Positions 3,135 through 48,671 of a stretch of 64,000 nt of DNA are shown in pieces. The notes beneath the pieces are model-generated. The model had not been told where the DNA came from, did no database searches, and was given only the letters and a program-made list of their open reading frames with translations. The translations under genes were made by a program, and so were the position numbers. The stretch is from Phycisphaerae bacterium RAS1 (GTDB taxonomy: Bacteria > Planctomycetota > Phycisphaerae > UBA1845 > Fen-1342). The stretch lies in the NCBI GenBank assembly GCA_007859745.1, contig SMLU01000001.1, positions 1,426,001 through 1,490,000 of the forward strand, in the 5' to 3' direction. The stretch's first letter is position 1; every line of letters begins with the position of its first letter.

Positions 3135-3218
3135 GGGGGGGACGGGCGTCTCGCCCGTCCCCTCGGCCTTTAGGAACGGGCGCGTTGCGGCGTGACGGGC
3201 GAGACGCCCGTCCCACCC
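3135..3218. repeat. Palindromic repeat family A, copy 1, spanning the pfaC stop
   Basis: Inverted arms of the type GACGGGCGTCTCGCCCGTCC and its complement with a central spacer. Translated on the minus strand the inner arm gives EGGTGVSPV, the C-terminal tail of PfaC; the pfaC stop codon (3170-3172) lies inside the repeat. Other copies are at 15111-15236, 19812-19875, 24438-24501 and 48558-48671. Confidence 0.9.
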
Positions 3219-9200: not shown

Positions 9201-9844
9201 CTGCCGCCGCGAAGGCCGAGCGCGGCCGCGAGCAGTGCCGCGGGGAGCGAGACGACCTGCGTGTTCCACGCGGGCGATGCCGTCGCGACGACATTTTGTC
9301 CATCCGAACCCGCCGAGCGACAACCCGTCGCTTGGCGCGACGGGTTCGGACAGAGCGCGACTGCGGGCCAGAGGTCCGCACTCCCCCTGTTTGGCGGCAT
9401 AGCCGCGGCCGCCATTGTCACACGCCGCGACCAGGCGGACGAACCATCGGTGGGAAGCGCAATCGCGGCGAGGTAGACGCCGACGCGCGTGCGATCGACG
9501 CCGCTGGTCACGCCGTCGCGCCACGCCGCCGCGCCGGCGTGGAGCGCCAGCTTGTAAACCGGATCAAGCCCGCGGAGCGCAGCCGGATCGACATCGAGAT
9601 CCGTCAGGTCGAGATCGAAATCGTCAACGTAGCAGCCGCGGCCGTGCGGCACGCTGTCCGGCCCGCCATCCGCTCGAATCGCCGCACGCGGATCGAGAAT
9701 CCAACGTCCCGGCGGGATGTTGCGGGCCATGTCGCGGCCGGCCGCGATGTTCCGCCAGAAGGCGCCGGGGCTGAGCGCGCCGGGCATCGCCACCCCGACG
9801 CCGACGATCGCAACCGGAGTGGCGCTCACGGGACCGACCCTCAC
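3170..9844 (-). CDS. pfaC: PfaC-type polyunsaturated fatty acid/polyketide synthase subunit (KS-CLF-AT-DH-DH)
   Basis: Large iterative synthase subunit of 2224 residues. Domains in order: ketosynthase about 10-475 with intact Cys222 (DAACASS), His356 (CHGTGT) and His396 (VGHLLTAAG). Next is a second KS-fold chain-length factor, about 505-890, in which the active-site Cys is Glu653 (SAAEASG). An acyltransferase at about 920-1230 has nucleophile Ser1022 (GYSLGE). A helical Ala-rich linker leads to four hotdog folds, about 1400-2205, which form two FabA-like dehydratase pairs. The second and fourth hotdogs carry the catalytic His-Phe motifs (CHFVDDMVMPG, His1686; AHFYQDPVCPG, His2104). The GTG start overlaps the pfaA stop by 4 bases, implying coupled translation. 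No acylglycerolphosphate acyltransferase domain follows, unlike some myxobacterial Pfa3. Repeat-derived peptides occur at about 165-181, 487-503, 1300-1312, 1818-1828 and in the last 16 residues. The lipid product is not predictable from sequence. Confidence 0.93.
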   Translation of the reverse strand: MRVGPVSATPVAIVGVGVAMPGALSPGAFWRNIAAGRDMARNIPPGRWILDPRAAIRADGGPDSVPHGRGCYVDDFDLDLTDLDVDPAALRGLDPVYKLALHAGAAAWRDGVTSGVDRTRVGVYLAAIALPTDGSSAWSRRVTMAAAAMPPNRGSADLWPAVALCPNPSRQATGCRSAGSDGQNVVATASPAWNTQVVSLPAALLAAALGLRGGSFTLDAACASSLYALKLAQDELQSGRADVMLAGGVSRPECLYTQMGFHVLQALSRSGVCRPFDAAADGLIVGEGAGVLMLKRLDDALKAGDRIYGVIRGIGLSNDMAGSLLAADSEGQLRAMRAAYEQAGWSPTDVDLIECHGTGTPLGDAVELQSLRTLWPRDGFRTGGCPIGSVKSMVGHLLTAAGAAGLIKVLWAMKAAKLPPSLNYDQSPPGAEPGGSPFRVQTATAEWPRRSEQTPRRAAVSAFGFGGINAHVLIEEFASGEALSAAGPAGGGRATTAEGGRATDAIAIVGMAGRIGAADGALIERVMFERESLSSTTIGELKVPLGRFRLPPAEIPELLPQQLLMLQVAADALQDAGGGPRPDPRAAVLIGIALDPNTSNYHLRWTRPREERDACGPALNAARVLGSLGSVVASRIAREFGLGGPSFAVSAAEASGPRALEIALRALRTGEIDRALVGAVDFAGDVRTRAARAALGAGDAPGDAAFAFVLKRQGDAQRDGDRIHALIDGAGFACGASLTPGDADAIESAIRRACGDAAVDAAELGLIEVDSCDDSTGAAVQRCIAAARSAAPTENQTTAIGRGAARFGGLGAAGGAASLFMAVTALRERRLPGSYDANGWAGAWDQGLFHAPLVPQYWAHDRAAGLRRAGVLSTTIDGGASFVILEESCAIPTAGSLPDAVQSRHATGRRPPQEGGRGARDVAFVFPGSGNHFVGMGREIGCTWPHVVDRLHEESLHAGSQLAPQLAWPRRSDWTAGWEADALRRMEDSTADLIMAQVSYGVVMSDLLRSFGLEPAAVIGYSLGETTGLFALRAWPDRDDMYRRMQRSPLFRSELAGACDAARRTWRLAAGERPDWRVVVVNRGPHEVRRALRGRERAYLLIINADDECVIGGQRTAVDAVVLELGCHAHAIAGASSVHCPIVAEVEAAYRELHLLMTRPPAGVRFYSAARAEAYEVTRESAAESITAQALHGFDFRRIIEQAYADGVRHFVEIGPGASCSRMIAKILAGKPHTARSASGGGENEADAVRRLLRALVEDGVLERFPPAAEPRTAGLVAKSEAPALRVPARSVGPLRPTTDAVKHRLEADTTAYEIHGVASAQLARDVARAGSAQAAAHDAFLRFSQTATATLAESAGLAARLAAAGGGIGTAVAGGGIGAAATRGEATAAAEGAPRPPVFDSDACMEFAVGSIARVLGPRFAPVDSYQKRVRLPDEPLMLVHRIVDLSGEPASLSHGTIATEHDVRDGAWYLDHGRTPVCIAVEAGQADLFLCSYLGIDLAVKGARAYRLLDAQIRFHRELPRPGETIRYDITIDRFVRQGDAWLFFFRFDATIAGVPLLTMRSGCAGFFTDEEIAESRGILLSSAEEAPAAPGPDDSVAAAAMIPIERCAFSATQLDRLRAGDLVGCFGPQFANLDLESPLRIPGGKMRLLHRVVELDPAGGRYRRGVIRGEADIRADDWFLTCHFVDDMVMPGTLMYQCCEHTLRVLLLRMGWVGEEREVGFEPLLETPCALKCRGPVTPKTRVVIYEVHVKRIRCGPEPGVVADAFMYADGLRIVQFTDMSLRMTGATRDSLAALWRQAGERPVPEKSDQEGRVPGETGWKPIPQTKPAVFDRDRILAFAVGKPSDAFGEPYRVFDEQRRIARLPGPPYMLMDRVTEIAAEPWNLKAGGWIEAQYDLPPDAWYFAANRQADIPFCILLEIALQPCGWLAAYLGSALKSDEDLRFRNLGGKAILHQPLGPDAGTLTTRIRITDVSVAGGMIIEKFDFEVRSGGQVAYAGDTYFGFFSDAALAQQVGVRGAAERALSLTAADQRAADRLLLPDEPPLTPAEGTRYAHCPLALPAAALRMVDSVDVSLGGGPRGLGWVRGEKAVDPTEWFFAAHFYQDPVCPGSLGLESFLQLLKVYARRRWPRLEATHCFSTMLEGRPHEWTYRGQVIPRNKKVEVEALITHIEDGPAPFVLADGFLKVDGLHIYEMKDFGIRLKPHEGGTGVSPVTPQRARS
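4355..4390. repeat. Family E-related fragment inside pfaC
   Basis: The sequence GGGCTTCCAGCCTGTTTCG on the plus strand is read in pfaC as GETGWKPIPQTKP, in the linker between the second and third hotdog domains. TGWKPIP-type peptides are the translation of one arm of repeat family E. Confidence 0.6.
5915..5980. repeat. Palindromic repeat family E copy inside pfaC
   Basis: The plus strand carries ATCGGCTTCCAGCCGGTGC at about 5928-5946, followed by a CGTCGGGCGCAGAGGTCCGACG hairpin-like stretch. On the coding strand it gives KHRLEADTTAYE in the linker between the acyltransferase and the first hotdog domain, where extra sequence should be tolerated. Confidence 0.65.
8337..8386. repeat. Tandem GC-rich repeat (family D) inside pfaC
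   Basis: Two tandem copies of a unit of about 24 bases starting GTAGCCCGGCCGCC. In PfaC they encode the doubled peptides GGGRATT and EGGRATD, directly before the chain-length-factor domain. The unit is itself palindromic (CGGCCGCCCCCGGCCG). Confidence 0.75.
9303..9350. repeat. Variant of palindromic repeat family B inside the pfaC ketosynthase
   Basis: Inverted arms TCCGAACCCG and CGGGTTCGGA enclose a CCCGTCGCTTGGCGCGACGGG hairpin. The sequence differs by few bases from the intergenic family B elements. It is read in frame as CPNPSRQATGCRSAGSDG, residues about 165-181, in the variable loop ahead of the active-site Cys222. Confidence 0.8.
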
Positions 9845-12800
9845 GTCCCCGGCGTCACGCCGTGCAAGCGACCGCGGCCGCCACGCACAGTTGCGTTAAT
9901 GATCCACTCGACGCCTTCGAGCCGCGCGACGACGCGGCGGTTCGAGTCGGCGATTTCGACGTCGCCCACCAGGCTCAGCTCGTCATGGCGCTGCACGAGG
10001 AGCGCGGCGATCAGGCCGCCGTGCGGGAAGCTGTCGCAGAACTGCCGGTAACTCGTCACGCCGGCCGGCAGGCTTAGAGCGCCGGCCTGCTGATGCGTCC
10101 AGAGCAAGCCGAGCTGCAATGCCGCGTCCAGCACGAGCGGATCGGCCAGCCAGGCGCTGCGCAGCGGGCTTGCCATCCACTCGCCCGGCGGCGGTGCGGT
10201 TTGAATGACAGCCGACATGCCGTTCGGGCCGCACGCAACGACGCGCTCAACGCCCGCCAGCATCGGGCCGTGGAACAGAATGTCCCCATAGATGGCGGTG
10301 CGGTCGTGCGGGTAGACGTCGCCGAGAGCGTTCGCGTCAGTCGCGGCGGGCTGCGCGGGAAGCTCGTCGAGCAGGAGCGCCGTCGCGCTCGCATGCCGCG
10401 TACCGCCGTCGCGGCTGGTTATTTCGACGGCAACGTGGAAGCCGTCGTCGTGTCGCGCAGCGCGCGCGGCGCGCAATTCAATGTCAACCGGCGAGCCGCT
10501 CAGCCGCACGCCTTTCAACACGCGCAGGCCGCTTAGACCGGCCAATCGCAGCCCCGGATGATCGTGCAAGGCGGCGTGCGCCAGCCATTCCATCATCAGC
10601 GCGACCGGTAGCGCCGGGTGGCCGTTGATCACGTGCGAACTGAGGATCGGATGATCGTCCAGACTCAGCCGCCGGGCGAGCACAAGCGCGGTGATCGGGA
10701 AACCGGACTCCCGGGAACCGGCCTCTAGGGGGCCGGCCCCTGGGGGACCGGCCTCAGGCCGGTCTCCGCTAGCGGATTCCCCGAAAAGAGACCGGCCGGA
10801 GGCCGGTCCCCCAGCGGCCGGTCCGTTGAGCGATCCGCCGAGAACGACTTCAACCGCGCCATCGCTCGCGTGCAGTTCCGCCAGCATCGCGGCGGCGCCA
10901 GCTTCGAGTGCGATCAGCTCGACGCCGAGCTTCTCGAATTCGCGCTTCAGCGCCGGGCCGACCATGCCGCCGTCCCACGGCCCCCAGTTCAGCGAGACCA
11001 CGCGGCAACCCGGACGCCGGCGTGCCAGCCGCTGCGCGGTTTTGTTCAGCATCTCGTTGGCCATCGCGTAATCGACCTGTCCGCGGCGGCCGAAGCGGCC
11101 GCTGACGGACGAAAACAGGGCGATAAACTTCAGGTCGTCGGACGCTGTCGCGTGCAGCAGGGCCGACAGGCCGAGCACCTTGGTATCAAAGACGCGCGCG
11201 AAGGATGCGGGCGACTTGTCGGCGATGCGATGATCTTCGATCACGCCGGCGCCATGAATTAGCCCGCGGATCGGACCATGCGTACGGCGAGTCTCGTCGA
11301 TCACGCGCGCCACGGCGTCCGCACTTCGCACGTCCACCGCCCGGTACACAACCGCGGCGCCGGACTTAGCCAGGCGCGACAGGTTGCGGCGGATTTCGCG
11401 GTCGGAGATCAGCCGCTGGTAGTGCCGTTGTAACTCCGCCGGCGTGAGTGAATGGCCGTTTGAGTGCAGATTCAGGATCGCCCGCTTGAGCGAAGCTTCG
11501 TCCGACAGTCCGGCCGTCGCCGCCGGTTCCTCGGCGGGAAGCTCAGATCGGCCGAGAAGCAACAGCGTGGGCCGGTAGCGCCGCACGAGCGGCAACAAAG
11601 TTTCGGCCGTTACGCCGCGGGCGCCGCCGGTGACGACGATCACGTCGCCGGCGGACAGCGGCAAGTCGCCGGCCGGCGCTGCCGCGGCATCTGTGAGTTC
11701 CAGACCAATCCGCCCCGCGGCCGACAGGCCGACCTCAATCGGTCCATCGGAAAGCAACTCGTCCGCGATTCGTGACGCCGCGGCGGGCGCATCGCGCATC
11801 GAGCGGTCCAGGTCAATCGCGACGCAGCGAACGCCGGGCCATTCGTCGGCCGCCGTCTTCACGAGGCCTGCGGCGGCGCCGTGCGACGCGTCGATTTCCG
11901 CGTTGCCGAGACCGAAGCGACCATCCAGGCGCGAGATCGTCGCCAGGAGCCCGTCGCGACCGGCCGCCGCGATCGGCGCGGCGACAGACTTCACCGCGGC
12001 GAAGAGGCGATGCGCATCGCAATCGCCATCCGCCAGCAGCGCGATCAACCCGCACACGCCGCGGGAGGGCGGGAGCGACGCTGCGGAAGACGGTGCGACG
12101 AGACGGGTCGTTGCGCCGCGCCGCGCCAGCTCGCTCGCCAGCGCCGCGGCCAGCGGTGTGCCGTCGTCTGTGATCAAAATCTCGCCGCCGGCCGTAGGGC
12201 GAAACGCCCCGGGGCGGGCCGGCGGCAACTCGACCGCTCGAAGGACGCGCCGACGCAGGGCGGGCCGATCAGGCTCCGCTTGCAGCGCCGGCGCCGACAC
12301 AAAAGGGTCGGCGTGCGTCTCCTTCAGCTCGTCTGTGCCGGCGGCGTGGCCGTCGCCGTTGCGTCCGTTTCCGTTCTTGCCGTTGCCGGACGGTTTCGCA
12401 GCGACCGCGTCGGGCGGGCTGGTCATGTAGTCGACGATGCTCTGCAGCGTCCGCAAGCTGCCGACGTACTGCGAATTCACGCTGGCCAGGTTCGGCAGGC
12501 GGCGCTGCACGCCGGAGAGGATTTCGAGCCGCTTGATCGAATCGATCCCGAGGTCGGCTTCCATGTCCATGTTGAGCTTGAGCATTTCGGCCGGATAGCC
12601 GGTCAGCTCGGCGACGACTTCGAGCAGCACGCGGCCCGGGTCTTCGGAATCGTTCACCGCGGACGTGGGCGCAGAGGCGGCGACCGGCGCGGAAGCCGCG
12701 ACGGAAGCGTGCGGAGCGGAGATCGGCGGTGAAGCAACCTGCGGCGGGGCGTATGGGGTCGGTTGAGGCGGGGAGATGTGGCTGTGGCCGTTGCCGGAAG

Positions 12801-15800
12801 GCAAGTACGCGGGAGCCGCGGCGATGGGCACCGGCGGCTGCGTCGCCAGGCTGCGCGAGACGGGCACGGCCACCGGGGGCGGCGCCACGATCATCGGCGG
12901 TGCGGCGGGAATCAGCGCTAGCGGCGGCGCTGGTGGGATTGCGGGCAGCGCAGCCGCCGTCGTCGGGGACGTGCCGAGCGTGTGCTCGACCAGCCGCTGC
13001 TGTTGCTCGATGAGCCGCTGGAACGACTGCGCCGTTCGCTCCTGCCCCTCCAGGAAGCGCTGATGGGCGATCGCCGTCTGCTCGGCCAGAAGCTGCATGC
13101 TGCGCAACCCCTCGCGGACGACCTCGAACACGTGCGGGAGGTCTGGCGCGGGCGCCGCGGCGTAGACCGTCGGCGGCGCGTGCGCCGGCGGGCCCACGCT
13201 GGTCGTTCTTGCGGACGCGGGAACAGGTCCGTTGGAACCTGCGGCGACGTGCGGCGGCGACGTCGCGCGGACGGCGGTATGAGACATCGAGAGAACCTCT
13301 GTCTGGCTCGTTTCAACACAAACCGAATCTGAGTCGGGAGCATCGGCTTCCAGCCGGTGCGACTTCGAATCAACCTCGCACTCGACCAACGCACCGGCGG
13401 GACGCCGATGCTCCCCGTTCGTCGGCCGCGGCGAACGGTAATTGGCGCCCACCAGTTGAACCGCCATGTTCGGATCGTGCGGCGGCGGCGGGGGCTGCTC
13501 CCAGTGGTTCAGATCAACGGCGTGGCCCAGCACGGCGAAGAGCGCCACCACCCGCGCCACGTCGGCAATCGCCGACGCCCGGCCGCAGGATGCGTCCGCT
13601 GAAATCGCCTGGAACGGCTTGCCGCTCAGAATGTTGTTCACCAGCCCCGTCAGCACCGCCTTCGGCCCGACCTCGACGAACGTACGCACGCCGGAGTCGT
13701 AGAGGTGCCGAATGTCGTCCACGAACTGCACCGGCCGCGCAAGCTGGCGCGCGAGCAGATCGCGAATCGCCCCCGGTTCGCGCGGATAGACCAGCCCGCT
13801 GACATTTGACATCACCGGCAGTCGCGGCGGCTCGAACGGCAGCCGCTCCAGCGCCGCCCGGAAGCGCAGCTCGACCTCGGCCATCATGCGGCTGTGAAAC
13901 GCGGCCGACACCTTGAGCAGCCGCGCGGGCCAGCCCTTCACGTTCTTCAGCACGCGGGCGGCCCGCTCGATCTGCGCGCGGACGCCGGAGAGAATGCCTT
14001 GCGTCGGCGCGTTGCGGTTGGCTAGTTCGACGTCGAGCTTCTCCGCGACGATCGCCTTCTCGATTTCATCGAGCGGCGCCTGAACCGCCAGCATCGCCCC
14101 GTCACCGGGGGCGGCAGCCATCCATTCGCCCCGCAGCCGGGCGATTTCGTGCAGCGTGGGCTCGTCGATGACGCCGGCGGCATGCAGGGCGACCAGCTCG
14201 CCGAAGCTGTGTCCGGCCACGTGCTGCGCCCGGACGCCGAAGCGCTCCAGCACGCGCAGCATCGCGAGCGTGACCGCGCCGAGGGCGGGCTGGGCCACGT
14301 CGGTTCGCGTCAGCGCGGCTTCCTGCGCTGTGCGGGTCGCATCCTCGAACGCCGACGGCGGGAAAATGCGATCGCTGAGCCGGGCGCCGCCGATCGTCGC
14401 ATCGGCCGCGGATAGCGCGTCGTGCGCCTCAGGGAACACACAGACCACGTCCCGCCCCATGCCGACGTACTGGCTGCCCTGTCCGGGGAAGAGGAAGGCG
14501 ACTTCGCCGGGTTCCTGCGGCCCGCCGAAAAAGAGGTTGCCAAAGCTCCACGAATGCTCGACGCCGCGCCGCTCCAGCGTTTCCAACGCCTGGCGCGCCA
14601 GCAGGGCGACATCCGCGCCGCGCTCGACGACCAGCACCAGCCGGAACCCGTCGCTGCGCGAGAACGCGTGGCGCGACGCGAACGCGCGCCGTGCAATCTC
14701 ATCGGCGTCGCCCGCAGCGACGCACACCCACGCCCGCAGCTTGTCGCGCAGCGCCGCCGGGCAGTCGCCCGACAGCGCGATGATCTCAACCGATCCGTCC
14801 CACGCCGGCTCACGCGCCGGCTGCGGATATTCCTCCAGCACGGCGTGAAAATTGCTGCCGCCGAAGCCGAAGGAGCTGACGGCCGCCCGGCGCGGATGAT
14901 CCGCAGCGCTCAGCCATGGCCGCGGCTGCGTCGGCATGTAGAACGGGCTGTCGTCGACGCCGAGCTTCGGATTCGGCTGCGAGAGTTTGGTGGTCGGGGG
15001 AATGACGCGCTGCTGGAGCGCCAGCACGGCTTTGATCAGGCTTGCGGCGCCGGCGGCGGCCTTGGTGTGGCCGATCTGCGCCTTCACTGAGCCGACTGCA
15101 CACCAGGGCAGCGCGGGCGTCTGAGCCTGTGAACGTTCTCGGGGTGGAACGGGCATCTCGCCCGTTCTTGACACGGCGGGGACGGGCGAGACGCCCGTCC
15201 CACCCGAATGTTCACTAGCTCTCTCGCCCGCACTCCCCTGAAAGACCGTCTTCAGCGCGTCGAACTCGACCACGTCTCCGACGCGCGTGCCCGTGCCGTG
15301 TGCTTCAACCAACTCGATGGTCGATGGCGCCACGCCGCTGATCGTGTACGCGTCGCGCAGCGCGATCGCCTGCCCTTCCGAGCGCGGCGCGTAGATGCTC
15401 TGCGAACGGCCGTCGCTCGATGTGCCGATGCCCTTCAGCACGGCGCAGATGCGGTCGCCGTCGCGCTGCGCGTCGGCGAGCCGCTTGAGCACCAGCATCC
15501 CGACGCCCTCGCCCAACACGGTGCCGTCGGCCTCCGCGTCGAACGGCCGCGCTTCGCCGCGCTGCGAAAGCGCCTGCGTTCGCGCGAAGCACATGAACAT
15601 GAAAATGTCGTTGAACGTATCCACGCCGCCGGTGAGCACCAGGTCGCTGCGGCCGGCCTGAAGCTCCAGCACCGCCAGGTGCATCGCCGAAAGCGAGCTG
15701 GCGCAGGCCGCGTCCACGACGCAGTTCGTGCCTTTCAGATTCAGTCGATTGGCGATCCGCCCGGCCACGACGTTGCCCAAAAGGCCGGGGAACGAATTCT

Positions 15801-16344
15801 CCTGCCAGCCGACGTACGCCTGGGCAATCTCCTCGACCACGCGCTGCGCCGTCTCGGGATCGATGCCGGCGTTTTCCATCGCCCGCCGCCAGTGCGGATG
15901 GCCCAGCCGCGCCCCCAGCGGCACGACCAGCTCCATCGCACCCGTGACCCCCAGGATGACGCTGGCGCGCGTGCGGTCAAACTCGCGCTGCGCGCCGTAG
16001 CCGGCGTCCTGTAGCGCCCGGTTGCCCGTCACCAGCCCCAGAAGCTGCGCCGTGTCGGTCGCTTCCAGAATCGTCGGGGGAATGCCGTATTCGAGCGGGT
16101 CGAACGTCACCGGCGAGAGAAACCCGCCGCGAGCGCAGTAAACCATGTCCGGCTGTTTCGGGTCATCGTGCAGATAGTCCGCCGGTGACCAGTGCGTGGG
16201 CGGGATGTCGGTGATCGCGTCTTCGCCGCGCCGCAGCAGCCGCCAGTATTCCTTCAGCGACGGGGCGCCGGGGAACAGCGCCGCCATTCCGATGATGGCG
16301 ATCGGTTCACCGGCGAGCCGGGATGTCGCGTTCGCGTCGCTCAT
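9841..16344 (-). CDS. pfaA: PfaA-type polyunsaturated fatty acid/polyketide synthase subunit (KS-AT-ACP-KR-DH)
   Basis: Core chain-building subunit, 2167 residues from the ATG at 16344, which overlaps the pfaD stop as ATGA; an in-frame GTG exists at 16356. Ketosynthase about 10-505 with Cys214 (DAACASS), His349 (AHGTGT) and His426 (IGHTKAA). Acyltransferase about 612-910 with Ser713 (GHSFGE), malonyl-transferase-like. A predicted helical segment at about 1070-1125 (QQQ-rich) and a Pro/Ala linker follow. There is one acyl carrier domain, about 1235-1310, with phosphopantetheine Ser1269 (DLGIDSIKR). The ketoreductase at about 1565-1800 has TGGARGV, Ser1745/1746 and Tyr1759. A polyketide-type dehydratase, about 1890-2120, has His1904 in an HxxxGxxxxP motif and a DAALQ second motif. 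A single ACP is unusual: PUFA-making PfaA proteins known to me carry several in tandem. Palindromic-repeat sequence is read in frame at about 370-413, 977-1003 and 1840-1882. Confidence 0.94.
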   Translation of the reverse strand: MSDANATSRLAGEPIAIIGMAALFPGAPSLKEYWRLLRRGEDAITDIPPTHWSPADYLHDDPKQPDMVYCARGGFLSPVTFDPLEYGIPPTILEATDTAQLLGLVTGNRALQDAGYGAQREFDRTRASVILGVTGAMELVVPLGARLGHPHWRRAMENAGIDPETAQRVVEEIAQAYVGWQENSFPGLLGNVVAGRIANRLNLKGTNCVVDAACASSLSAMHLAVLELQAGRSDLVLTGGVDTFNDIFMFMCFARTQALSQRGEARPFDAEADGTVLGEGVGMLVLKRLADAQRDGDRICAVLKGIGTSSDGRSQSIYAPRSEGQAIALRDAYTISGVAPSTIELVEAHGTGTRVGDVVEFDALKTVFQGSAGERASEHSGGTGVSPVPAVSRTGEMPVPPRERSQAQTPALPWCAVGSVKAQIGHTKAAAGAASLIKAVLALQQRVIPPTTKLSQPNPKLGVDDSPFYMPTQPRPWLSAADHPRRAAVSSFGFGGSNFHAVLEEYPQPAREPAWDGSVEIIALSGDCPAALRDKLRAWVCVAAGDADEIARRAFASRHAFSRSDGFRLVLVVERGADVALLARQALETLERRGVEHSWSFGNLFFGGPQEPGEVAFLFPGQGSQYVGMGRDVVCVFPEAHDALSAADATIGGARLSDRIFPPSAFEDATRTAQEAALTRTDVAQPALGAVTLAMLRVLERFGVRAQHVAGHSFGELVALHAAGVIDEPTLHEIARLRGEWMAAAPGDGAMLAVQAPLDEIEKAIVAEKLDVELANRNAPTQGILSGVRAQIERAARVLKNVKGWPARLLKVSAAFHSRMMAEVELRFRAALERLPFEPPRLPVMSNVSGLVYPREPGAIRDLLARQLARPVQFVDDIRHLYDSGVRTFVEVGPKAVLTGLVNNILSGKPFQAISADASCGRASAIADVARVVALFAVLGHAVDLNHWEQPPPPPHDPNMAVQLVGANYRSPRPTNGEHRRPAGALVECEVDSKSHRLEADAPDSDSVCVETSQTEVLSMSHTAVRATSPPHVAAGSNGPVPASARTTSVGPPAHAPPTVYAAAPAPDLPHVFEVVREGLRSMQLLAEQTAIAHQRFLEGQERTAQSFQRLIEQQQRLVEHTLGTSPTTAAALPAIPPAPPLALIPAAPPMIVAPPPVAVPVSRSLATQPPVPIAAAPAYLPSGNGHSHISPPQPTPYAPPQVASPPISAPHASVAASAPVAASAPTSAVNDSEDPGRVLLEVVAELTGYPAEMLKLNMDMEADLGIDSIKRLEILSGVQRRLPNLASVNSQYVGSLRTLQSIVDYMTSPPDAVAAKPSGNGKNGNGRNGDGHAAGTDELKETHADPFVSAPALQAEPDRPALRRRVLRAVELPPARPGAFRPTAGGEILITDDGTPLAAALASELARRGATTRLVAPSSAASLPPSRGVCGLIALLADGDCDAHRLFAAVKSVAAPIAAAGRDGLLATISRLDGRFGLGNAEIDASHGAAAGLVKTAADEWPGVRCVAIDLDRSMRDAPAAASRIADELLSDGPIEVGLSAAGRIGLELTDAAAAPAGDLPLSAGDVIVVTGGARGVTAETLLPLVRRYRPTLLLLGRSELPAEEPAATAGLSDEASLKRAILNLHSNGHSLTPAELQRHYQRLISDREIRRNLSRLAKSGAAVVYRAVDVRSADAVARVIDETRRTHGPIRGLIHGAGVIEDHRIADKSPASFARVFDTKVLGLSALLHATASDDLKFIALFSSVSGRFGRRGQVDYAMANEMLNKTAQRLARRRPGCRVVSLNWGPWDGGMVGPALKREFEKLGVELIALEAGAAAMLAELHASDGAVEVVLGGSLNGPAAGGPASGRSLFGESASGDRPEAGPPGAGPLEAGSRESGFPITALVLARRLSLDDHPILSSHVINGHPALPVALMMEWLAHAALHDHPGLRLAGLSGLRVLKGVRLSGSPVDIELRAARAARHDDGFHVAVEITSRDGGTRHASATALLLDELPAQPAATDANALGDVYPHDRTAIYGDILFHGPMLAGVERVVACGPNGMSAVIQTAPPPGEWMASPLRSAWLADPLVLDAALQLGLLWTHQQAGALSLPAGVTSYRQFCDSFPHGGLIAALLVQRHDELSLVGDVEIADSNRRVVARLEGVEWIINATVRGGRGRLHGVTPGT
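10700..10825. repeat. Cluster of family C palindromes inside pfaA
   Basis: Three or more GACCGGCC-N-GGCCGGTC hairpins (for example GACCGGCCTCAGGCCGGTC) follow one another within about 125 bases. They encode the low-complexity stretch NGPAAGGPASGRS through EAGSRESGF, linking the ketoreductase to the dehydratase of PfaA. Related hairpins lie at 19690-19715, 31727-31751 and 59797-59820. Confidence 0.8.
13336..13415. repeat. Palindromic repeat family E, full copy inside pfaA
   Basis: Arms of 26 bases at 13336-13361 and 13390-13415 (GGGAGCATCGGCTTCCAGCC and near-complement). The element is read in frame as about 27 residues (GEHRRPAGAL to SHRLEADAP) in the linker between the acyltransferase and the helical region of PfaA. 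A related full element is intergenic at 44016-44077. Confidence 0.85.
15111..15236. repeat. Palindromic repeat family A, full copy inside the pfaA ketosynthase
   Basis: The core 15142-15204 matches the other family A cores. The outer arms (GCGGGCGTC with CTGTGAAC, and GTTCAC with GCCCGC) match the full-length intergenic copy at 48558-48671. The element is translated in frame as about 42 residues containing GGTGVSPVP and GEMPVPP, placed between the catalytic His349 and His426 of the ketosynthase. Confidence 0.9.
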
Positions 16345-18041
16345 GTTCCTTCGCACGCGCCGATGCGTCCTGGTTCGAGCAGCTCATCCAGGCAGCGCGG
16401 CGCGAATTGCGCCGCGGCCGGCGGCAACTCGACCCCCTGCGCCCGCAGCCACGCGGCGCGCGTCAGCGCCGCCGCGCCGATCATCAGGTTCAATCCAACC
16501 GTCACGATGTCGCGCCCTTCCGGCTTTTCAAGGGCCGATCCGCGCGCCCACTCGTTGAACGCGGCCATCGCCGGCCCGCACCACACCTGGTAATCCGCCT
16601 GGCGCGACGGCTCGCCGCTATTGGCCCATTTCGACGATTGACCGAGATACGCCCGGAAAACGAGCGCCATCCTGTGCTTCGGCTCGCGCTCGGCTCGGAT
16701 GATCTGCGACGGATCGCGCCGCTCGAAATAGGCTCGCGTCTGTTCCCAGGCCGCTTCGAGCGACGTGCGGAAGTAGTCTCGCTCCAGCGTCGCCCGCTCA
16801 TCCGCCGGCAGCGCGTCGAGCGAGTCGTACGTGCGATACAGCGCATACAGTTTGCGAGCGCGGACGCCAAAGAGCGTGCCGCGCTTCAACACCTGCACGT
16901 TTACACCCATCTCGAACATGTCCGCCGCCGGCGCCATCATCACATCCGCCTGCCCCGCCGCAGCCAGCATCCGCCGCACGGCGTCGCTCGTGCCCGCTTC
17001 GCGGCAAGACTGGTTGATCGACCCGGTCAGGATGTATGCCGCCCCCATCGCAAAGGCCGCGGCGGCGGAGGCAGGCGTCGCGATGCCGCCCGCCGCCCCG
17101 ACGCGCAGCGGCCGGTCGTAGCCAAAGCGCGCCGCCAGTTCGTCACGCAGCGCCAGCATCGTCGGCAGCAGCGTTACCAGCGGCCGATTGTCCGTGTGCC
17201 CGCCCGAGTCCGCCTCAGCCGTGAGGTCTTCGGCCATCGGGATTGTCGCCGCCAGCTCCGCCTGCAAGGCCGTCATGTCGCCGCGGCGGACCAGCTCGGC
17301 CAGCATGGCCGGCGGCGGTGGGCTGAAGAACTTCCGCGCCAGCTCGACGCGCGAGACCTTCGCCATGACGCGATTCGGTGCGACCACCCGCCCGTCGGCC
17401 GATTCGTGAATTCCGCTCACGCGATAGCGCACCAGCGGCAGCGTCAGATCGAGATACGCCGACGCGCTCACCAGCCGCACGCCGCGGCGCAGATACAACT
17501 CAACCGTCGCCGCTTCGACATCAGGCTCGGCCGGGCTGTGAATCAGATTGAATCCGTACGAACGCGAGCCGACGGCGGCCTGAACGCGATCGATCGCGCT
17601 CTCAATGCGCTCCAGGGCAAGGCCGGCGGCGCCGAAGAATCCGAGAAATCCGGCCCGCGCAGCGGCCAGGACCATCTCGACCGACGCAATGCCGTTGGCC
17701 ATTTCCCCGCAGATATATGAAAAGTCGACGCCGTGGTCGCGCCGGAACGAGGCGTCACCGAGTTGGCTCGGCCGAAGGGCCGGCGCCAGCGCCAGCAGCG
17801 CCGTTTGCTCGTCCCGCGGGCGGAGCCCCAGGGCCGCGACGCCGATGTGGGCCACGGCTGGCCCCTCCGGCGTCGAGACGACGAACAGCGGCAAACCGAC
17901 GGCGTGAACCGCGTCAGCCAGCGCCTGATCGCCCGTCGCGGGCGCTGACGTCCCGCTCCACGTTCCGATCGGCGCCGCGGCCCCGCGGCAAGGAAGTAGC
18001 GCAGGTCCGGCCGATCGCGAGCTGTACGCCTCGGTCAGCAA
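16341..18041 (-). CDS. pfaD: PfaD-type enoyl reductase of the Pfa synthase
   Basis: FMN-dependent TIM-barrel enoyl reductase of the nitronate monooxygenase/2-nitropropane dioxygenase superfamily, expected to reduce the trans-enoyl intermediates. About 566 residues, the normal PfaD length. Diagnostic stretches are FSYICGEMANGI, a GFFGAAGL loop, SADGRVVAPNRVMAKVSR, EADSGGHTDNRPLVTLLP, and GAAGGIATPASAAAAFAMGA, the phosphate-binding part. It is first in the operon and overlaps pfaA. The only start in this frame near the conserved region is TTG at 18041, with AGGA about 8 bases upstream; the extreme N-terminus is therefore uncertain. The phosphopantetheinyl transferase (PfaE) needed to activate the ACP is not in the window. 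Confidence 0.92.
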   Translation of the reverse strand: MLTEAYSSRSAGPALLPCRGAAAPIGTWSGTSAPATGDQALADAVHAVGLPLFVVSTPEGPAVAHIGVAALGLRPRDEQTALLALAPALRPSQLGDASFRRDHGVDFSYICGEMANGIASVEMVLAAARAGFLGFFGAAGLALERIESAIDRVQAAVGSRSYGFNLIHSPAEPDVEAATVELYLRRGVRLVSASAYLDLTLPLVRYRVSGIHESADGRVVAPNRVMAKVSRVELARKFFSPPPPAMLAELVRRGDMTALQAELAATIPMAEDLTAEADSGGHTDNRPLVTLLPTMLALRDELAARFGYDRPLRVGAAGGIATPASAAAAFAMGAAYILTGSINQSCREAGTSDAVRRMLAAAGQADVMMAPAADMFEMGVNVQVLKRGTLFGVRARKLYALYRTYDSLDALPADERATLERDYFRTSLEAAWEQTRAYFERRDPSQIIRAEREPKHRMALVFRAYLGQSSKWANSGEPSRQADYQVWCGPAMAAFNEWARGSALEKPEGRDIVTVGLNLMIGAAALTRAAWLRAQGVELPPAAAQFAPRCLDELLEPGRIGACEGT

Positions 18042-19811: not shown

Positions 19812-19875
19812 GGGTGGGACGGGCGTCTCGCCCGTCCCTGATGCGGACGGGACGGGCGAGACGCCCGCCCCACCC
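19812..19875. repeat. Palindromic repeat family A, copy 3
   Basis: Core element GGGTGGGACGGGCGTCTCGC with its near-perfect complement, intergenic between the Xer recombinase gene and ybeY. It could act as a hairpin terminator-like barrier, although no T-run follows. Confidence 0.88.
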
Positions 19876-24437: not shown

Positions 24438-24501
24438 GGGTGGGACGGGCGTCTCGCCCGTCCTTGATGCGGCCGGGACGGGCGAGACGCCCGTCCCACC
24501 C
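24438..24501. repeat. Palindromic repeat family A, copy 4
   Basis: Near-perfect inverted repeat of GGGTGGGACGGGCGTCTCGC, intergenic between the MFS gene start and the ABM-domain gene end. The whole core is 64 bases. Confidence 0.9.
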
Positions 24502-48557: not shown

Positions 48558-48671
48558 TGCGGGCGTCCTGTGAGTCTTTCGGGTGGAACGGGCGTCGTAC
48601 CCGTTCCTGAGACGGCGGGGACGGGCGAGACGCCCGTCCCACCCAAATGGTCACAGCCTCGACGCCCGCAC
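48558..48671. repeat. Palindromic repeat family A, full-length copy 5
   Basis: Core at 48581-48644, and outer arms GTGCGGGCGTCCTGTGA and TCACAGCCTCGACGCCCGCAC extend the palindrome to about 114 bases. It is the best intergenic match to the element inside the pfaA ketosynthase. Confidence 0.9.

Follow-up and report, generated by a model that had tools for sequence, protein, structure and literature searches.

We wondered how a palindrome that is dispersed over a bacterial genome came to be translated inside the catalytic domain of an enzyme, and what could have moved it there. The locus that raises this question belongs to Phycisphaerae bacterium RAS1 and lies in a stretch of 64,000 nucleotides (contig SMLU01000001.1, positions 1,426,001 to 1,490,000), which was analysed as a whole and is called the window below. 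Coordinates are window positions unless a locus name accompanies them; RAS1 is genome G000 in such names.

A dispersed palindrome in the PfaA ketosynthase

The gene concerned encodes a PfaA-like polyunsaturated fatty-acid synthase. Its relevant features are listed here, with residues, including those of the insert, counted from the ATG at 16344.

9841..16356, minus strand: PfaA-like polyunsaturated fatty-acid synthase ORF with insert, 2171 aa; Pfam KS-AT-ACP-KR-DH
15703..15705, minus strand: codon of ketosynthase catalytic Cys214 (DAACASSL motif)
15298..15300, minus strand: codon of ketosynthase catalytic His349, upstream of the insert (EAHGTGT motif)
15111..15236, minus strand: translated ketosynthase insert with inverted outer arms, approximately residues 370-412
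15067..15069, minus strand: codon of ketosynthase catalytic His426, downstream of the insert (IGHTKAAAG motif)

The domain order KS-AT-ACP-KR is present according to Pfam, every domain of the 2171-aa frame is recognisable and the ketosynthase (KS) retains Cys-His-His. An earlier reading of the locus, made without database searches (hereafter the sequence-only reading), had claimed that a palindrome at 15111-15236 is inserted in frame in this domain, between His349 and His426. Both statements held, the second under the numbering given above. The insert is in the reading frame of the minus-strand ORF and its peptide includes GGTGVSPVP and GEMPVPP. The claimed match of its core to an intergenic element at 48558-48671 held too, with 90% DNA identity over 112 aligned positions, gaps included. 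Outer arms, also part of that claim, are real in the PfaA copy (they score 19, and the 99th percentile among mismatched copies is 18). Folded as single-stranded DNA, the insert has a z of -8.2 relative to shuffles, none of 200 shuffles being as good. A dispersed palindrome thus entered a conserved catalytic domain of PfaA in frame.

The insert would form a Gly/Pro/Ser-rich loop of about 40 residues. This is inferred from sequence alone, as are production of the peptide and exposure of the loop; there is no proteomic evidence. Surface exposure, proposed by the sequence-only reading, was not shown, the structure model of the RAS1 KS (built with window sequences only) having a pLDDT of 30.5. Absence of stop codons from the element does not go beyond base-composition expectation (shuffles, P = 0.45). 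Selection of the element for being stop-free was therefore rejected, and there is no need to suppose that it was shaped for coding.

Palindromes of other families are also translated at this locus. Two lie in linkers of PfaA, at 10730-10824 and at 13330-13420; the latter includes the GGGGAGCATCGGCGTCCCGCCGGT family, with 119 exact copies in the RAS1 genome. The neighbouring PfaC-like gene carries another, of the CCCGCCGCTTGGCGCGGCGGG type, in frame in its own ketosynthase at 9309-9378.

The loop is short in orthologous ketosynthases

We compared the KS of PfaA with 28 orthologous ketosynthases from 28 related genomes of the same family and order, none of them from the same genus. Loop length was taken as the stretch from the EAHGTGT motif to the IGHTKAA motif. 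It amounts to 40-44 residues in 27 of the 28 orthologues, to 56 in the remaining one and to 77 in RAS1 PfaA, a net gain of 37 residues over the commonest orthologue length of 40. The exceptional orthologue (L052) has a loop 16 residues longer that is unrelated to the RAS1 insert. KS relatives were also sought among viral contigs for a better alignment, and none were found.

The sequence-only reading predicted that orthologues would show a gap of exactly the length of the insert, about 42 residues. The gap is present in all 28, and the exact length failed: the palindrome spans 42 codons and the net gain is 37, so the predicted addition held only in part. Because the net gain is smaller than the palindrome, some native loop residues were replaced or lost. 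The broader proposal, that a mobile palindrome had entered a catalytic domain in frame in a manner parallel to Rickettsia palindromic elements, is supported, the loop site being short in orthologues.

The insert is a REPIN of an abundant family

The REP family of the PfaA insert is designated family A. Its census in RAS1 is a sample and is incomplete. The following copies and units are located in the window.

15142..15205, minus strand: 64-bp REPIN core of the PfaA insert, two inverted REPs with a short spacer; same core, of 64 or 56 bp, in most of 34 sampled copies
15144..15166, plus strand: REP unit 1, GTGG + 8-bp stem + 3-nt loop (GTGGAACGGGCATCTCGCCCGTT)
15181..15203, minus strand: REP unit 2, inverted (GTGGGACGGGCGTCTCGCCCGTC)
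48581..48644, plus strand: intergenic family-A REPIN, the comparison copy of the sequence-only reading
19812..19875, plus strand: family-A REPIN in no confirmed gene
24438..24501, plus strand: family-A REPIN in no confirmed gene
3135..3218, minus strand: family-A REP pair over the 3' end and stop codon of the PfaC-like gene (peptide ...EGGTGVSPVTPQRARS)

REPs of family A are paired in inverted orientation, with a core mostly of 64 or 56 bp in 34 sampled copies. Most of these copies lack matching outer arms. Arms as a family-wide trait, implied by the sequence-only reading, were therefore rejected, and it is the core of 64 bp (or 56 bp) that constitutes the family unit. REPs of Stenotrophomonas maltophilia consist of GTAG, an 8-bp palindrome and a 3-nt loop (PMC8266576). 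Family-A REPs have this layout and are paired in inverted orientation, so the element is best called a REPIN. The tetranucleotide that precedes REP hairpins is most often GTAG; in family A a conserved GTGG occupies this position. The picture of an orphan palindrome is hereby corrected: the element is an inverted REP pair with a plausible transposase, described below.

Each strand of the 5.5-Mb genome carries 258 exact copies of the 19-mer core; the reversed control gives none. A 25-mer (GGGTGGGACGGGCGTCTCGCCCGTC) has 233 exact copies in RAS1, 7 in one relative, 1 in another and 0 in 98 of 100 relatives; family A is thus specific to the RAS1 genome. A further copy lies in frame in a spermidine-synthase-like gene. 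No target-site rule for family-A insertion was found.

Family-A units also occur as arrays. In an inositol monophosphatase gene (L085, 8222-8399), an in-frame REP array encodes about 60 residues shortly before the WIIDPIDGT metal-binding motif. At G000:C1:2489574-2489748 the 19-mer core is repeated in tandem with a 26-bp period, in at least 7 units.

A RAYT flanked by the same REP in the isoleucyl-tRNA synthetase gene

A Pfam search of the RAS1 genome yields 20 loci with a Y1 (HUH) transposase domain. Only one of them, L041 on contig C3, has family-A REPs within 1.5 kb. Here a RAYT lies between family-A REPs that form a 28-bp perfect inverted repeat, and the whole is in frame within the gene for isoleucyl-tRNA synthetase (IleRS). 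The stop-free frame has 1436 residues, with tRNA-synt_1 and the anticodon-binding domain recognised in its flanks. No stop codon terminates the RAYT itself, and the frame continues through the downstream REP back into the synthetase. The RAYT matches the NCBIfam REP transposase model with E 3e-20, yet this is below the cut-off of the model. No second, intact IleRS copy was found in the RAS1 genome, and the embedded gene is the sole IleRS found.

Elsewhere in RAS1, near-identical stand-alone Y1 transposase genes (L045-L047, G000:C1:2613193-2619576) are arranged in tandem, about 1.6 kb apart.

Embedded transposases in other genes and genomes

Relatives of the L041 RAYT in the same family of genomes (E < 1e-20) occur in long open frames of IleRS, PurH, RarA and GcvP. 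The IleRS-embedded RAYT occupies one site in five genera and another site in two more; an assembly chimera as origin of the RAYT-in-IleRS arrangement was rejected on this ground. The PurH-embedded RAYT occupies one loop in many genera. Less related Y1 genes of the same genomes are mostly ordinary stand-alone ORFs. In a phylogenetic tree, 18 main-clade embedded RAYTs form one supported group (95/88).

Several of these loci have peculiarities of their own. In the PurH of G019 (L128) the embedded RAYT appears frameshifted or misassembled, with PurH split in two frames, an exception to the in-frame rule. The same PurH loop holds a second, distantly related Y1 clade in three related genomes (L174, L175, L181), with one HUH histidine changed in L181. 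The valyl-tRNA synthetase (ValRS) of RAS1 (L082, G000:C4:133500-144500; 1581 aa) carries, in frame, a different Y1 transposase with many repeats encoding EPLPHGRGSE on its flanks, and the glycine dehydrogenase GcvP (L083, G000:C1:695000-705000) an in-frame RAYT flanked by repeats encoding VARPPS. More than 10 tandem copies of a REP-encoded 14-residue unit stand beside the RAYT in the IleRS of G011 (L110), and long REP-peptide arrays lie on both sides of the RAYT in the PurH of G010 (L129).

A broader set of 80 named genomic loci was fetched by the RAYT motif alone. The RAYT lies within a longer open frame in 62 of them and is free or short in 18. These are counts of loci, not of independent insertions, and in a few of the 62 the contig stops within the locus, leaving only one flank visible. 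Hosts of the 62 are distributed as follows.

ValRS: 21
PurH: 11
IleRS: 9 (with L223)
DUF1156-type methylase: 7
Ham1 (Ham1/RdgB): 6
Type ISP: 2
Another DNA methylase: 2
Remaining loci: AlaRS, HSP70, RarA and one unassigned

Host labels were assigned by motif, with examples confirmed by Pfam for ValRS, Ham1, DUF1156, AlaRS, Type ISP, HSP70 and N6/N4 methylase. Most of the named loci come from Phycisphaerae; methylase hosts are found in records labelled Deltaproteobacteria, Elusimicrobia, Chloroflexi, Bacteroidota, Solibacteraceae and others.

The alignment of 17 embedded RAYTs reveals that H75, H77, Y145 and N149, comprising the HUH motif and catalytic tyrosine, are invariant in all of them. Values of dN/dS are 0.09-0.27 for similar pairs with unsaturated dS, so that embedded RAYTs are under purifying selection (approximately 0.1-0.3). 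An AlphaFold2 model of a Ham1-RAYT fusion (mean pLDDT 72) predicts two Ham1 halves with a separate domain between them, joined by REP-encoded linkers of low confidence. Foldseek matched this chain to Ham1 (3tqu, E 1e-13) and to a RAYT bound to a REP hairpin (4er8, E 2e-8). Pfam scans of the IleRS, ValRS, GcvP, Ham1, AlaRS, HSP70 and methylase fusions found no intein family.

Possible origin of the insert

Taken as a whole, the likely account is that the PfaA insert is a REPIN whose mobiliser is most probably the IleRS-embedded RAYT. The insert, its frame, the empty orthologous sites, the copy number, the REP anatomy and the IleRS RAYT flanked by the same REP are shown. That this RAYT moves the family-A REPIN is inferred, as no transposition was seen and there are no cleavage data. 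The mobiliser would be the Y1 HUH RAYT that is encoded in the IleRS gene and bounded at its ends by inverted copies of the family-A REP. Like TnpA-REP, it would identify the single-stranded hairpin by the tetranucleotide tag, nick the strand with formation of a 5'-phosphotyrosine bond and rejoin the hairpin at another place. The REPIN, a non-autonomous pair of REP hairpins, would in this manner have inserted in the loop that leads from the helix after the HGTGT motif to the strand preceding GSVKxxIGHT. It may have been retained because it is in frame and stop-free and because the loop tolerates change of length.

In RAS1 the embedded RAYT goes together with an amplified REP family; in the two other genomes tested this pairing is not clean. 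Only 5 exact copies of the G008 IleRS REP exist in G008, clustered within about 150 bp at the IleRS locus itself, and the REP of the G011 IleRS has 20 exact copies in G011 versus 119 in RAS1. A one-to-one pairing across genomes is consequently not supported.

A bolder reading, towards which the balance tips only slightly, is that a clade of REP-associated transposases leads an intein-like life without splicing. Its members would be lodged, in frame, in those loops of essential enzymes that accept insertions (among the hosts are aminoacyl-tRNA synthetases, PurH, Ham1 and DNA methylases), be translated together with the host and kept by purifying selection, move between such genes and seed translated REPINs such as that of PfaA.

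Alternative explanations

The KS loop might have expanded natively, its likeness to the repeat being convergence in a GC-rich genome. GC-rich hairpins are indeed frequent in the window, and orthologue L052 has a different loop longer by 16 residues. However, copy number and DNA identity refute this view: the insert is 90% identical to the intergenic copy, its core has 258 genome copies against 0 reversed, and its fold z is -8.2. Native expansion is all but excluded. It is also very improbable that PfaA is a decaying gene with the insert as neutral debris. Its linkers do hold palindromes of other families, but the 2171-aa frame is open with all domains recognisable and Cys-His-His kept, and the adjoining PfaC-like gene is intact too.

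Two further alternatives concern the RAYT. REPINs could have spread via recombination, gene conversion or a different RAYT, the one in IleRS merely sitting among them. This remains possible, given the unclean REP/RAYT pairing in G008 and G011 and the tandem arrays among family-A copies; against it, the IleRS RAYT is the only one of 20 Y1 loci in RAS1 with nearby family-A REPs, and its inverted ends are perfect. Alternatively, the embedded RAYT or REP could be removed at the RNA or protein level in an intron-, bypass- or intein-like way, leaving a normal mature enzyme. In the mRNA, base pairing between the inverted repeats on either side would place the ends next to each other, and the hosts are essential enzymes, like those of many inteins. 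We nevertheless consider removal unlikely: both REPs and the entire RAYT keep the frame open, a property for which excision has no need, the fusion proteins have no intein domain in Pfam scans, and in the Ham1-RAYT model the Ham1 fold is retained while the insert is predicted to form a domain apart.

Implications and relation to known systems

RAYTs are thought to be immobile and housekeeping-like, and how they persist is an open question. Their recurrent presence in frame in essential enzymes, under purifying selection, suggests a route of persistence, namely residence in a host gene that is both indispensable and constantly expressed. Embedded RAYTs make the persistence of RAYTs directly testable. 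It may be that essential enzymes of bacteria can accommodate an entire transposase domain, and the sites concerned represent natural permissive insertion sites for protein engineering. There is also a warning, as annotation filters throw out RAYT-fusion proteins. A classification of Y1 transposases from 2018 met unexpectedly long TnpA-Y1 proteins in each subclass and excluded these, regarding them as fused genes or mistakes of annotation (PMC6006769). In contrast, the embedded RAYTs described here are in-frame insertions supported by orthologues, with the transposase intact.

Translated REPs are already known; a report from 2013 describes intragenic REPs with tRNA synthetases among the hosts (PMC3733652), and a study from 2021 states that evidence for mobility of tnpAREP is lacking (PMC8266576). 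What is new is the recurrence of in-frame RAYTs inside essential enzymes, which is apparently undescribed: no description was met in the open-access literature searched, subscription papers being outside its scope.

The RAS1 system resembles REPs, REPINs, BIMEs and REPtrons (TnpA-REP, RAYT) in several respects: its tagged hairpins are paired in inverted orientation and abundant in the genome, a RAYT has the same REP on its flanks, and this transposase has the HUH motif and tyrosine. It differs from REPtrons in the tag, GTGG instead of GTAG, and in that the likely cognate RAYT lies in frame within an essential gene, its frame running on across both REPs to the host protein. With Rickettsia palindromic elements the comparison concerns behaviour alone, both being palindromes that are read in frame as part of enzymes which survive the insertion; the phylum differs, the sequence presumably so, and in RAS1 a linked transposase family was identified. 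Like inteins with homing endonucleases, embedded RAYTs bring a mobility enzyme in frame into conserved loops of essential enzymes. Unlike in inteins, no Hint domain was found in them, and the host enzyme is expected to function without removal of the insert.
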